Virus record (IMG/VR): IMGVR_UViG_3300003894_000270
Coordinates: 1 to 20,554 of that record
Strand: one strand, 5' to 3'
Origin: a virus
Length of the DNA stretch: 20,554 nt
Below are positions 141-15,240 of the stretch, piece by piece. The notes under the pieces are model-generated. The model was given only the letters and a program-made list of their open reading frames with translations. It made no database searches and was not told the DNA's origin. Every line of letters starts with the position of its first letter. The stretch's first letter is position 1. A program made the position numbers and the translations under genes.

Positions 141-223
141 AGCCGCCGATAGGCACGGTGGGGGGCTGTTTATAAGTGGATGTGACCCTCACAGCGTTGA
201 AATCCTGTAGCAGTCCCCTTCTC

Positions 224-279
224 TATACCGGGATATATAAGTCACAAGTTGTGACTTTGCTGTGACTTTGTGTGACTTT
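224..279 (+). repeat. Iteron-like module, copy 1
   Basis: The module reads TATACCGGGA (224-233), then AAGTCACA (239-246, an inverted copy of the repeat), then three direct copies of TGTGACTTT starting at 250, 261 and 271. The 10-11 bp spacing puts the copies on one face of the helix, as expected for a cooperatively binding protein. A second copy of the module lies at 347-397, and a lone TGTGACTTT at 512-520. Phased direct repeats are typical of iteron origins, ParR-type centromeres and operators of ribbon-helix-helix repressors; which applies here is unknown. Confidence 0.8.
239..257. promoter_or_regulatory. 19-bp perfect palindrome (operator-like)
   Basis: AAGTCACAA-G-TTGTGACTT is a perfect 9+1+9 palindrome. 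Its right arm is the first TGTGACTT direct repeat and its left arm is the only full inverted copy. A palindrome of this length fits binding of a dimeric protein that could then spread along the direct repeats. No ligand is known. Confidence 0.65.
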
Positions 280-305
280 AGTTTGGGGAGGGTGTGTATA
301 GCGTA

Positions 306-339
306 GTAAGTCGACCCCCTCGGGGGATAGGAGACTTAC
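306..339. other. Nested hairpin between the two repeat modules
   Basis: GTAAGTC (306-312) pairs with GACTTAC (333-339), and inside it CCCC (315-318) pairs with GGGG (323-326) around a CTCG loop. The outer arms contain AAGTC/GACTT, the same core as the TGTGACTT repeats. It could extrude as a cruciform or fold as RNA. It lacks the T-loop and anticodon-arm features of a tRNA, and no T-run follows. Confidence 0.5.
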
Positions 340-346
340 GAAGCGG

Positions 347-397
347 TATACCGGGAAGTCAGGGGTTGTGACTTAGGTGTGACTTCGTTGTGACTTT
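347..397 (+). repeat. Iteron-like module, copy 2
   Basis: The order matches copy 1: TATACCGGGA (347-356), an overlapping inverted arm AAGTCA (356-361), then TGTGACTT at 367, 378 and 389, exactly 11 bp apart. The AT spacer and part of the inverted arm found in copy 1 are replaced by AGGGG. The preserved order with diverged spacers argues for a functional duplication rather than chance. Confidence 0.8.
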
Positions 398-448
398 CTC
401 GCGTGTGCGCGTAGGCGGGGTGTATTTAATTACTTAATACATATATTC

Positions 449-489
449 ATAAATACCCTTCGCTTTTTTAAGAAGCTACGGGTATTTGT
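449..489. other. Long inverted repeat beside an AT-rich stretch
   Basis: AAATACCC (451-458) and GGGTATTT (480-487) form a perfect 8-bp stem, extendable by an A-T and a G-U pair to 449-489. Inside it GCTT (462-465) pairs with AAGC (473-476) next to a run of six T. An AT-rich stretch (about 422-458) leads into it. It could be a bidirectional terminator, a cruciform or an origin unwinding region. The single TGTGACTTT copy at 512-520 lies just downstream. Confidence 0.5.
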
Positions 490-551
490 TGCGTTAGCGC
501 GCGCGAGGGCTTGTGACTTTCTTGCTTATGGTGCTGGTGTGTATTACAGTG

Positions 552-584: not shown

Positions 585-764
585 GTGTCGGAGATATTTG
601 AAAAGACTGAAGACAAGAGTGTTGGTGGGATTCAGCGTCACGTGGTGTCGGTGTCGTTCAATAAGTCTGAGTTTGCAAAGTTGAAGAAGCTGCAGGCAAA
701 TGCACCAGCGCAGTTCCTGCAAAATTCAACATCAGCTTTTATCAAGTTCAAGGTCTTGGGATAG
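585..764 (+). CDS. Small protein, possible ribbon-helix-helix DNA-binding protein
   Basis: A 59-aa protein if started at GTG 585, nine bases after GGAAGG. An upstream in-frame GTG at 558 would lie inside the duplicated leader and before the ribosome-binding site, so I reject it. From about residue 18 the protein reads as a short strand (HVVSVSF), a charged helix (NKSEFAKLKKLQ), a loop and a second helix with the pattern S-T-S-A-F-I-K. This is the strand-helix-helix order of Arc/CopG-like proteins, which bind DNA as dimers through the strand. The gene sits directly downstream of phased repeats of the sort such proteins bind, so autoregulation or partition is possible. The assignment rests on pattern alone; it could also be an unrelated small phage protein. 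Confidence 0.5.
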   Translation: MSEIFEKTEDKSVGGIQRHVVSVSFNKSEFAKLKKLQANAPAQFLQNSTSAFIKFKVLG

Positions 765-793: not shown

Positions 794-1049
794 GAGCACT
801 TACAAGTGCGCTAAGTGCAAAAAGACCTTCAAGCCTGTTCAGGGTGGACTCACCATGCGCTGTCTCGTAAACCACCCCAAAGGAACCTGCTGCCACTACG
901 GAGAACGAGAAATCGTCTACGAATCTCCTGAAGGAGGCGTGATTACAACCGACTCCTATCCACACGTTGGAAAAACACCTGTAGAAGAATGGGTGCAACT
1001 AAAAGACCTGCACGTCTGCTCTTGTGGAGATGTTCACGTTCATGGCTGA
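792..1049 (+). CDS. Cys/His-rich putative zinc-binding protein
   Basis: An 85-aa protein with three metal-ligand clusters: C6-x2-C9 at the N-terminus (YKCAKCKKTF), C24-x3-H28 with C33-C34-H35 in the middle, and C76-x-C78 with H82 and H84 at the C-terminus. The first CxxC with its following basic residues looks like half of a zinc ribbon. Eleven potential ligands in 85 residues would bind two or more zinc ions. I do not recognise a named family. The start is set by GGAGGG six bases upstream. Its end overlaps the next gene by eight bases, suggesting coupled translation. It may bind nucleic acid or act in early takeover or packaging; its position does not decide between these. Confidence 0.75.
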   Translation: MSTYKCAKCKKTFKPVQGGLTMRCLVNHPKGTCCHYGEREIVYESPEGGVITTDSYPHVGKTPVEEWVQLKDLHVCSCGDVHVHG

Positions 1050-1545
1050 AAAGACCTACGACAAAATTGAGTACCGGGTAAACGCTGCCATACCCGAATG
1101 GAAAGAATGGGCGCGCCGACTAAGACGCATATACGCTTCACTCGAAGATATCGGAAGCAAACAAGAAGCCATTCAAGATGCTGTCGAACAATGGGGATGG
1201 GAATGGGTATCCATTCAAAAACTCTGGAAAGCACACCCAACATTCAACGACGCTGTCGAGGAATATCGAAAAGACGGTGACTACCCCAAGAAAAAACACT
1301 GGGTCAAAAGAGTCACAGCTTCCGAACTAAAAACCGTTTATATGCGGGAAGGAGAATTGACATCCTTCGCCTCACTCGACGAAAATCCTAAAGCAACCAC
1401 TTTCCATGCGTCAGTAGTAGCTGCCAACGGTATGCTTGATTTATCTGAACCGTATGGAGACAGGGATGACCTTGTTCAACCAGACTCAGCACCTGAAAAC
1501 CCAAGTAGCGGGTCAGGGCTGGCAAATAACTGGGACGAAGATTAG
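1042..1545 (+). CDS. Candidate terminase small subunit (HTH-like protein)
   Basis: A 167-aa protein from ATG 1042; GGAG lies 12 bases upstream, and in-frame starts at 1024 or 1030 are possible but worse placed. The N-terminal half is basic and helical. Residues about 39-72 (QEAIQDAVEQWGWEWVSIQKLWKAHPTF in two helices) resemble the helix-turn-helix of small terminases, which often ends in a HP-x-F-x-x-A-V motif. The C-terminal third is acidic and disordered, ending in a Ser/Gly/Asn-rich tail, which in known small terminases contacts the large subunit. The large terminase begins about 330 bases downstream. Small terminases recognise the packaging site on DNA. The call is inferred from position and motif; a generic HTH regulator is the alternative. 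Confidence 0.45.
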   Translation: MAEKTYDKIEYRVNAAIPEWKEWARRLRRIYASLEDIGSKQEAIQDAVEQWGWEWVSIQKLWKAHPTFNDAVEEYRKDGDYPKKKHWVKRVTASELKTVYMREGELTSFASLDENPKATTFHASVVAANGMLDLSEPYGDRDDLVQPDSAPENPSSGSGLANNWDED

Positions 1546-1873: not shown

Positions 1874-3430
1874 ATGCCATACCAGCCACACGAACACCAA
1901 CTAAAACTTCATAAGTCCAAAGCAAAGGTCAAGTGGAATCAAACGGGTCGCCGTGGCGGTAAGACCCGTTCCGCTTTAGAAGAAGACCTTGCGGTTATCG
2001 AGTCGCTTTCCCACAAATATGTCCAGTTTCCTAACAGCGATAAAAAACAAACCGCTGAAGAAGCTAGGCTCGTTCCTGCTATACACGTCTGGACGGTAGC
2101 ACCTACCAAAGCACAGATGTATCAGGTCTGGAACGAAATGCAGGCATTCATTCCCGAATACCTAGTTTCTAAGACCAACCCCTACAGGGACAATAAACTC
2201 GGTGGCGGGAGAGGCTCAGGGTTCAAAGAAGACGCTCTGCACGTATGGCTTACGTTCAAAGACCGAAACGGACGGTGGCTCAAAGGTCGTGATGGCAAGG
2301 TTCGCCCACGACCTATTGTTTTCTGGGAACTCAAAAGTGCAGATAACCCCGAATCACTACAGTCAGTCGGACTCGACTTTCTACACGTCACAGAAGCACA
2401 GGAAATAGACGAACGTGGATGGAACAAACTGCGACCCACTCTCTCGTCCCCCGGTCGTGCTGGACGCGCCCTCATCGAAGGCATTCCACCAGTTTCTCCG
2501 TCACATTGGTTCGCTCGAAATTTCAAGAGAGCAAAGGAAAAACCTAGCCGCCGCCGTGAAGCATTCTCTTGGTCGGCGTTCGATAATCCACTCCTCACCG
2601 ACGAACAAAAAGAAGAAATCCTAGAAGACAAAGAAACCATGATGGAAGAGGACTGGAACCGCCTGTATATGGCTATCCAGCCCGAAGGTGTAGGTGCTTT
2701 CTTCCGAAAGGTTGATAAAGCTGCTAGGGGAAAAGAACTACTCCGACCCGACCACTCTCAAGAATACGTTGCAGGACTTGACCTTGGTCGTAGTAACGAT
2801 GCTACGGTACTCATAGTCAAGAACCGTAAAACACGAGAGTCCGTATCAGCCACAGAACTTCTGAAAACTGACTGGACACTCCAGATGGAGACCATCAGAA
2901 GTGAAGCCCGAAGATGGAACCTCAGACAGATTGTTATGGACTCGACTGGACTGGGTGGGCAATTCGCTCGTGACATCATGTACAACGAAATGCTGGCTGA
3001 GGGAATACCAGTCATCGCCTTCAACTTCACACCGGTGGCGAAATACCACGACCTGTATCTGCCTTACAGAGTTGCTCTCGAACACGAACAAGTATCTTTC
3101 CCGCCTGAGTGGTCAAAGCTAAGTTCTCAACTTATGGACACTACCCACAAGGAAACCGCTAATCGTGGTCACGTATTCGGAACATCGTCTGGAGGGCATG
3201 ATGATTGGGCTGACGCGGAGGTACTTGCCTTGTACGGATGCGACCCCGTAGAGTATGCTCAGAGTACGCGTAGTCTGAGAGATACCATGGGAATGGAGCC
3301 TTTGCGCCCTAATTTCATATCTCGAAGGCGTGGGAAGAAGCGCGGGTTTATCGGTTTGACAAGAGAGGCGCGACACGCCGATTACTTGAACGAAGTAGAT
3401 AACCTGCTGGAAGCGGAAACAATTAGATAA
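1874..3430 (+). CDS. terL: Terminase large subunit (packaging ATPase-nuclease)
   Basis: A 518-aa DNA-packaging motor protein that hydrolyses ATP to pump DNA through the portal and cuts concatemers. The Walker A motif is GRRGGKT at residues 25-31. The Walker B strand is DFLHVTE at 168-174, with E174 as the likely catalytic base; Thr replaces the usual Asp before it. The C-terminal RNase H-fold nuclease shows its acidic residues in GLDLG (D303), VMDSTG (D356) and HDDWADA (about 443-447). The C-terminus is basic. The start at 1874 is the first ATG in frame and has only a weak ribosome-binding site, so coupling to upstream translation is plausible. The stop overlaps the portal start (TAATG), so the two are probably co-translated. 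The length is normal for the family. Confidence 0.95.
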   Translation: MPYQPHEHQLKLHKSKAKVKWNQTGRRGGKTRSALEEDLAVIESLSHKYVQFPNSDKKQTAEEARLVPAIHVWTVAPTKAQMYQVWNEMQAFIPEYLVSKTNPYRDNKLGGGRGSGFKEDALHVWLTFKDRNGRWLKGRDGKVRPRPIVFWELKSADNPESLQSVGLDFLHVTEAQEIDERGWNKLRPTLSSPGRAGRALIEGIPPVSPSHWFARNFKRAKEKPSRRREAFSWSAFDNPLLTDEQKEEILEDKETMMEEDWNRLYMAIQPEGVGAFFRKVDKAARGKELLRPDHSQEYVAGLDLGRSNDATVLIVKNRKTRESVSATELLKTDWTLQMETIRSEARRWNLRQIVMDSTGLGGQFARDIMYNEMLAEGIPVIAFNFTPVAKYHDLYLPYRVALEHEQVSFPPEWSKLSSQLMDTTHKETANRGHVFGTSSGGHDDWADAEVLALYGCDPVEYAQSTRSLRDTMGMEPLRPNFISRRRGKKRGFIGLTREARHADYLNEVDNLLEAETIR

Positions 3431-14334: not shown

Positions 14335-15240
14335 ATGGCTGAAGGTCTGACTCTTTCCAGCACGTCTAGTTTGTCGGATATGTCTCTAACCGTGGTTGCA
14401 GACGCAATCGCTAACGTGGAGCCTGCAGGTCCAACTGCCGGTCTCGTTACTCGATACGACCTCGCACAGGGTCAGACGCAGAAGAACATCCCACTCTGGG
14501 GTCGCCTTACTGCATCTGCTCTTACTGAGGGTGTTGAAATTAACGCAGCCCAGCAGGTATCTGTCACGGTTCGTAACGTCACTGCTTCAGAGCATGGCGT
14601 TCTCACGTTTGTGTCTAAAGTTCTGCAGCGCGAGAACTCAGAAGATGTACTTTCTGAGGTGGGAATGATGCAAGGTCTTGCCCTTGGGCGACTCCGTGAG
14701 TCTGACCTTGTCACCCTTTTCGACTCCGTAACAGGACTCTCGATTCCGGGTGCAGGTCAAAACATTACCTTCCCCGATCTCGCTGGTGCAGTGGCATATA
14801 TGCAAACTGACAACAACTCTTCATTCGGTCCAGCACCGGGTGGAACCATTAACGCTGTCCTACACCCCGAGCAGATTCGACGACTTGTTGAAGAAGATGC
14901 TGGTATTGGTGCTGGCGGCTCAACTATGGCAACGGGCGCACGACCAGATGGTCCGAGCAACGAAGTCATAAACAATTACTGGCGCGGTCAGGAGCAGAGA
15001 TTCGGAGTCCAGATTTGGTCTTCAGGAATCATCTCTCGTGATGGCTCTGGTGATGCTAAGGGCGCAATCTTCTCTCCACAGGCGTTTGCTCTGTGTATGG
15101 CTCAGGAGATTGAAGCCGACGACGACAAAGACATTCGCTCCCGCGGAACCGACATCGTAACTGTCGGTGTGTGGGGTGAAACCGAGATTGTTGACGAGTG
15201 GGCTGTAGAGGCTTACTCAGCAGCAGACGTAGTTAGCTAG
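14335..15240 (+). CDS. Major capsid protein
   Basis: A 301-aa protein with GAGG nine bases before its ATG. It forms the icosahedral shell, presumably with the HK97 fold. The N-terminal arm (about 1-45), a strand-rich region with the flexible loop (about 45-85), a long helix around residues 100-125 (SEDVLSEVGMMQGLALGRLRESDL) and a C-terminal domain with the strand pattern around AVLHPEQIRRLVEE and GAIFSPQAFALCMAQEIE fit this fold. Position after the scaffold and before small head genes supports the call. No protease domain is fused. The length is typical for capsid proteins of this class. Confidence 0.8.
   Translation: MAEGLTLSSTSSLSDMSLTVVADAIANVEPAGPTAGLVTRYDLAQGQTQKNIPLWGRLTASALTEGVEINAAQQVSVTVRNVTASEHGVLTFVSKVLQRENSEDVLSEVGMMQGLALGRLRESDLVTLFDSVTGLSIPGAGQNITFPDLAGAVAYMQTDNNSSFGPAPGGTINAVLHPEQIRRLVEEDAGIGAGGSTMATGARPDGPSNEVINNYWRGQEQRFGVQIWSSGIISRDGSGDAKGAIFSPQAFALCMAQEIEADDDKDIRSRGTDIVTVGVWGETEIVDEWAVEAYSAADVVS

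Follow-up and report, generated by a model that had tools for sequence, protein, structure and literature searches.

The region at approximately positions 220-490 of the window, i.e., the complete 20,554-bp IMG/VR metagenomic contig analysed here, is probably the replication origin of the unclassified tailed phage from which the contig derives, judging from its sequence and from comparison with related phages. It combines several features of iteron origins, namely a clustered short word, helical phasing of the copies and an adjacent AT-rich stretch. An origin is favoured because equivalent arrays in other genomes accompany a particular replication module, the array of one genome consists of DnaA boxes, AT-rich tandem repeats adjoin the arrays, and the cumulative GC-skew minimum of a 40-kb relative falls at its array region. 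The original prediction had offered an origin, a partition centromere or a cooperative operator; the comparative evidence favours the first of these, gives the second no support and leaves some probability to the third.

Positions 1-557 of the window contain no long open reading frame (ORF), and are followed by two small ORFs, a gene resembling that of the small terminase subunit (TerS-like) and the gene of the large subunit (TerL; Table 1). As the structural model of the TerS-like protein (pLDDT 74.5) had no match in the PDB or among viral structures, its identity rests on gene position. The portal and capsid gave weak family matches only, and the closest phage isolate match, DSL-LC06, has a capsid 30% identical and is too distant to be informative. 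Searches of bacterial and archaeal genomes with TerL and of Rfam with the window returned no match, and no replication genes are present on the window itself. Each of the two consecutive small ORFs is preceded by a 32-bp leader, TAGGTAGTGGAACGAYTYGGARGGAACGACAT, at 552-583 and 762-793 (91% identity).

Table 1. Positions of features in the window (plus-strand numbering; strand left empty where none applies).
Feature	Position	Strand	Remarks
Left half of conserved element, CGCCGATA	144-151	+	Invariant in 8-sequence alignment; flanks the array
Right half of conserved element, TGTGACCCTCACAGCGTTGA	181-200	+	Degenerate pattern; present in groups 1-3
TATACCGGGA, first copy	224-233	+	Exact copy; lead-in of module 1
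Inverted word copy	239-246	-	Exact copy; reads AAGTCACA on the plus strand
Module 1, TGTGACTT at 250, 261 and 271	250-278	+	Steps of 11 and 10 bp
Strong inverted repeat, GTAAGTC...GACTTAC	306-339		Inner GACCCCC/TCGGGGG; between modules 1 and 2
TATACCGGGA, second copy	347-356	+	Exact copy; lead-in of module 2
Module 2, TGTGACTT at 367, 378 and 389	367-396	+	Steps of 11 and 11 bp
AT-rich stretch	421-460		82.5% A+T; candidate strand-opening region
Hairpin, AAATACCC-TTCGC...GCTACG-GGTATTT	451-487		Counterpart hairpins in relatives
Eighth word copy	512-519	+	Exact copy; isolated
59-aa ORF	585-764	+	68 aa if started at GTG 558; unique to the window; no family
TerS-like gene	1042-1545	+	Assigned by position; helical N-terminus; no database match
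TerL gene	1874-3430	+	PHROG 2, E 2e-30

The window holds eight exact copies of TGTGACTT, counting both strands, all of which lie within 281 bp (239-519), seven on the plus strand and one inverted. Among 100 dinucleotide shuffles of the window the word occurred 1.09 times on average and at most five times, and eight copies were never reached; the stretch between the conserved left element and the TerS start (859 bp) was shuffled 200 times without yielding an 8-mer repeated as often. The original prediction had described seven copies and a compound module present twice. All seven starts were confirmed, as were the 10-11 bp spacing within each triplet and the TATACCGGGA lead-in, whose two copies are the sole exact ones in the window. 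The array is therefore real, but it had been slightly understated: the first of the two AAGTCA arms that had been noted is in fact a full inverted word, which pairs with the first copy of module 1 (250-257) in a perfect dyad, AAGTCACA-AGT-TGTGACTT, that opens the module. The arm of module 2 (AAGTCAGG) and its dyad are imperfect, and the bases TATATA, which precede the arm of module 1, are missing there. A distance of 123 bp separates the two compound modules. The copy at 512, which had been counted with the array, lies outside both modules and occupies the position where relatives have, by eye, a promoter-like TTGTGATAGG just before terS, so that it may be part of a different, promoter-like element.

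Relatives were collected via TerL and via the TerS-like protein, giving group 1 (TerL >80% identical) and groups 2 and 3 (TerS about 30% identical). Close relatives lack the literal letters of the window's repeats, as the original prediction had set out as grounds for rejecting it, but their architecture is conserved and the word has been replaced: the closest contigs carry AAATACAC, AAATCCAC, AAACCCAT and TTACACAC in the corresponding gap, ahead of the TerS-like gene. Word arrays occur in all 11 group-1 loci that cover the gap, where a word specific to the genome is present in 4-8 exact copies, and for each locus none of 200 shuffles matched the repeat count. The order in group 1 is a two-part element, the word array, hairpins, AT-rich or TTAAC-type tandem repeats and then terS, with the tandem repeats adjoining the array in most members. 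The hairpins that correspond to that of the window have a similar CTTCGC/GCTACGG core, and their arms often spell the word of their own genome. Searching the literature for iterons located close to phage terminase genes gave no description of such an arrangement. Scans of IMG/VR for DNA patterns (TGTGACTT pairs and a conserved spacer) were set aside, as they returned mostly contigs not tied to this phage group.

Same-strand copies of the words follow one another mostly at steps of 10-12 or 21-22 bp. Pooling of 10 loci whose words differ gave 33 such neighbour steps, of which 30 deviate by no more than 1.5 bp from one or two helical turns. The iterons of P1, RK2, R6K and lambda are roughly 19-22 bp in length. 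Such origins likewise have helically phased initiator sites, and opening takes place at an adjacent AT-rich stretch (PMC5043065); they differ from the present arrays, in which the words are 8-9 bp, direct and inverted copies are mixed, and the location is upstream of terminase genes, far from replication genes and with no known cognate initiator gene. The arrays of DnaA boxes in oriC likewise consist of 9-mers on one strand, with short gaps that place the protein on a single face of the helix (PMC4451416, PMC11317965). In oriC, DnaA sites of low affinity lie exactly two bp apart (PMC4451416) and DnaA favours pairs of sites 2-3 bp apart (PMC11317965); the 8-mers of the window, at steps of 10-11 bp, are equivalent to 9-mers with gaps of 1-2 bp, which is near the published values but not exact.

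The words of G025 are canonical DnaA boxes (TTATCCACA, TTGTCCACA, TTATCCACA) at 10-11 bp steps, with inverted copies further along; those of the window and of most relatives are not. The window word AAGTCACA agrees with TTATNCACA at five of its seven defined positions, a weak resemblance when taken alone (p about 0.08), and the pattern TTWTNCACA, present in G025, does not occur at 181-560 of the window. Seven non-canonical words, treated as independent, jointly resemble TTATNCACA more closely than any of 20,000 shuffles made from them.

A replication origin of this kind would work through several copies of an initiator, either host DnaA or a phage protein with a DnaA-like site preference, which would occupy the words along a single helix face, straining and opening the AT-rich stretch. 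The phage helicase and primase, which are encoded leftward in related genomes and would lie beyond the end of the contig here, could then load at the opened DNA. The drift of the word among sister phages would be accommodated if the copies within one origin change jointly with their binder.

Gene content is consistent with this scheme. In the 40-kb group-1 genome G006 the leftward module encodes a helicase (AAA_25) and a primase (CHC2), and we infer that the missing left end of the window carries a module of the same type. Helicase-based scans yielded four further records, three of which (G024, G025 and G026) extend over the gap that precedes the terminase. All four records with this helicase and primase and with the gap have arrays (G006; G024, AGTAACA; G025, TTATCCACA; G026, TAGTAACA), in contrast to none of the nine with an IstB/DnaC-like loader (G008-G011, G013, G015, G017, G018 and G021), and the IstB loader was absent from every array-bearing record tested. 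Counting records, the chance probability of this distribution is 1/715, which is indicative only, since the records share ancestry and are not 13 independent cases. The terminases of G024 and G025 have no detectable similarity to those of the window, the TerS of G025 being a Pfam Terminase_2 protein. These comparisons are indicative of arrays that follow the replication genes, not the terminase. The proteins common to the array-bearing genomes include the helicase, the CHC2 primase and RusA, but a search among them revealed no dedicated initiator. In the terminase tree group 1 is monophyletic (100/100) and G026 is a long branch outside it; as its position is unplaced, we dropped G026 as proof of a module swap.

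The GC-skew check that had been proposed was run on G006, where the cumulative minimum (14482) lies at the array region, approximately 100 bp from the conserved element at 14391, but it coincides with a divergent switch in gene strand, which is a confounder.

In most group-1 loci the array immediately precedes the TerS-like gene, a position that could also indicate a packaging start (pac or cos), in which the words would be recognition sites of the small terminase subunit, upstream of its own gene, with cutting nearby. There is precedent in SPP1, whose pac covers the beginning of terS together with direct repeats, and in SF6, which has different repeats replacing boxA (PMC4737164); direct repeats upstream of terS that differ in sequence between relatives are thus shared with the present case, and the conserved two-part element adjoins the array in every genome. 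However, approximately 30 loci with a homologous TerS carry no words, and the arrays of G024 and G025 stand beside unrelated terminases. This absence beside homologous genes and presence beside unrelated ones sets the arrays apart from SPP1 and SF6 and makes a packaging start improbable.

If a packaging site is located here, the two-part element at 144-200, common to groups 1-3, is the better candidate. Three phage groups that differ in their replication genes have it upstream of terS, and in groups 2 and 3 it is mostly kept and the words are absent. The distance between its halves (CGCCGATA, then the core of the TGTRNCCCTCACRGYGYTGA-type half) is fixed at 44-46 bp in 12 records, and the CGCCGATA/CAGAGCGTTGA-type pair occurs once per genome in the window, G002, G003, G005-G011, G017 and G018. 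The degenerate pattern of the right half was found in 6 IMG/VR contigs only, all from this phage group. We regard the element as a candidate packaging or late-transcription site. Contig ends near the element are scattered and do not define a single point, which again argues against packaging.

Several observations were made around the element. The left ends of L006-L011, L014 and the window lie within 0.6 kb to its left, at differing positions; an interpretation of group-1 contig ends as physical DNA ends was rejected because their distances from the array are scattered. A conserved stretch (GCTCCGCACCATCCG...) precedes the leftward genes at about 100-330 in L011 and about 4540-4790 in L012, and may be a minus-strand structured leader. 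In group 2 (L016:4530-4702, L024:603-770, L030:5221-5388 and 11 others) the slot between the conserved element and terS, held by the words in group 1, contains a branched structured-RNA candidate of approximately 170 nt. It has 45 pairs, of which 19 are changed on both sides, with 97.9% of cells paired, and none of 500 shuffles had covariation as high; no Rfam family was matched at threshold, and weak searches of relatives gave chance-level matches. In group 3 (L155/L156, G017) this slot, approximately 0.3 kb upstream of terS, is taken by small ORFs, one of them HNH endonuclease-like by eye.

A cooperative operator, on which a phage regulator bound to phased half-sites would control divergent leftward and rightward units, is compatible with the divergent intergenic position and with the perfect dyad beside phased half-sites. 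Joint drift is possible for a regulator and the sites that it binds. An operator would likewise follow the early gene module, and the association with the leftward module is therefore compatible with this explanation too. We nevertheless consider it unlikely: all exact word copies of the window and of G002 are in the one cluster, a consensus scan revealed no sigma-70-like promoter (itself weak evidence), and the canonical DnaA boxes of G025 and the AT-rich tandem repeats are left unexplained. Nor is the adjacent 59-aa ORF, to which the array had been linked, present in relatives; none was found in 12 other records tested or in the phage collection. Being unique to the window, it does not explain the arrays of relatives, and the comparison indicates that its product cannot be the general array binder, so that the proposed link fails as a general mechanism. 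The sequence of this protein had suggested a ribbon-helix-helix repressor with its own operator, which was set aside because the single-sequence model is beta-beta-alpha-beta rather than beta-alpha-alpha (pLDDT 63, low confidence) and the protein has no relatives.

The same low-confidence model, in not being a ribbon-helix-helix fold, weighs against a partition centromere of a plasmid-like phage (parC- or tubC-like), bound by a ParR- or TubR-like protein. R1 parC is composed of two sets of direct repeats of about 11 bp, which the two clusters of 10-11 bp direct repeats in the window resemble. The present array differs in its inverted copies and AT-rich tandem repeats, and no ParM, ParA or TubZ was recognised in the G006 ORFs that were read or the proteins scanned against family libraries, a survey that was not systematic. 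With no partition genes seen, this explanation has no support and is very improbable indeed.

The origins of uncultured tailed phages are seldom known, and comparative anatomy yields here a specific, testable candidate in a phage family without a close isolate. Beyond the replication origin itself, we tentatively suggest, as a possibility that we consider doubtful at present, that sister phages share one origin anatomy in which the initiator word is rewritten in every copy at once, giving each lineage a private origin code, with rewriting even where the terminases of two phages retain 80-90% identity. Such a code might range from host DnaA boxes, as in G025, to words recognised by an initiator specific to the phage. 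If this is true, the origins of coinfecting relatives would be mutually blind. The group provides a natural series in which the geometry is constant and the recognition word is replaced, and this allows one to ask how initiator specificity shifts while the origin stays intact, and whether the reader is host DnaA or a phage protein.
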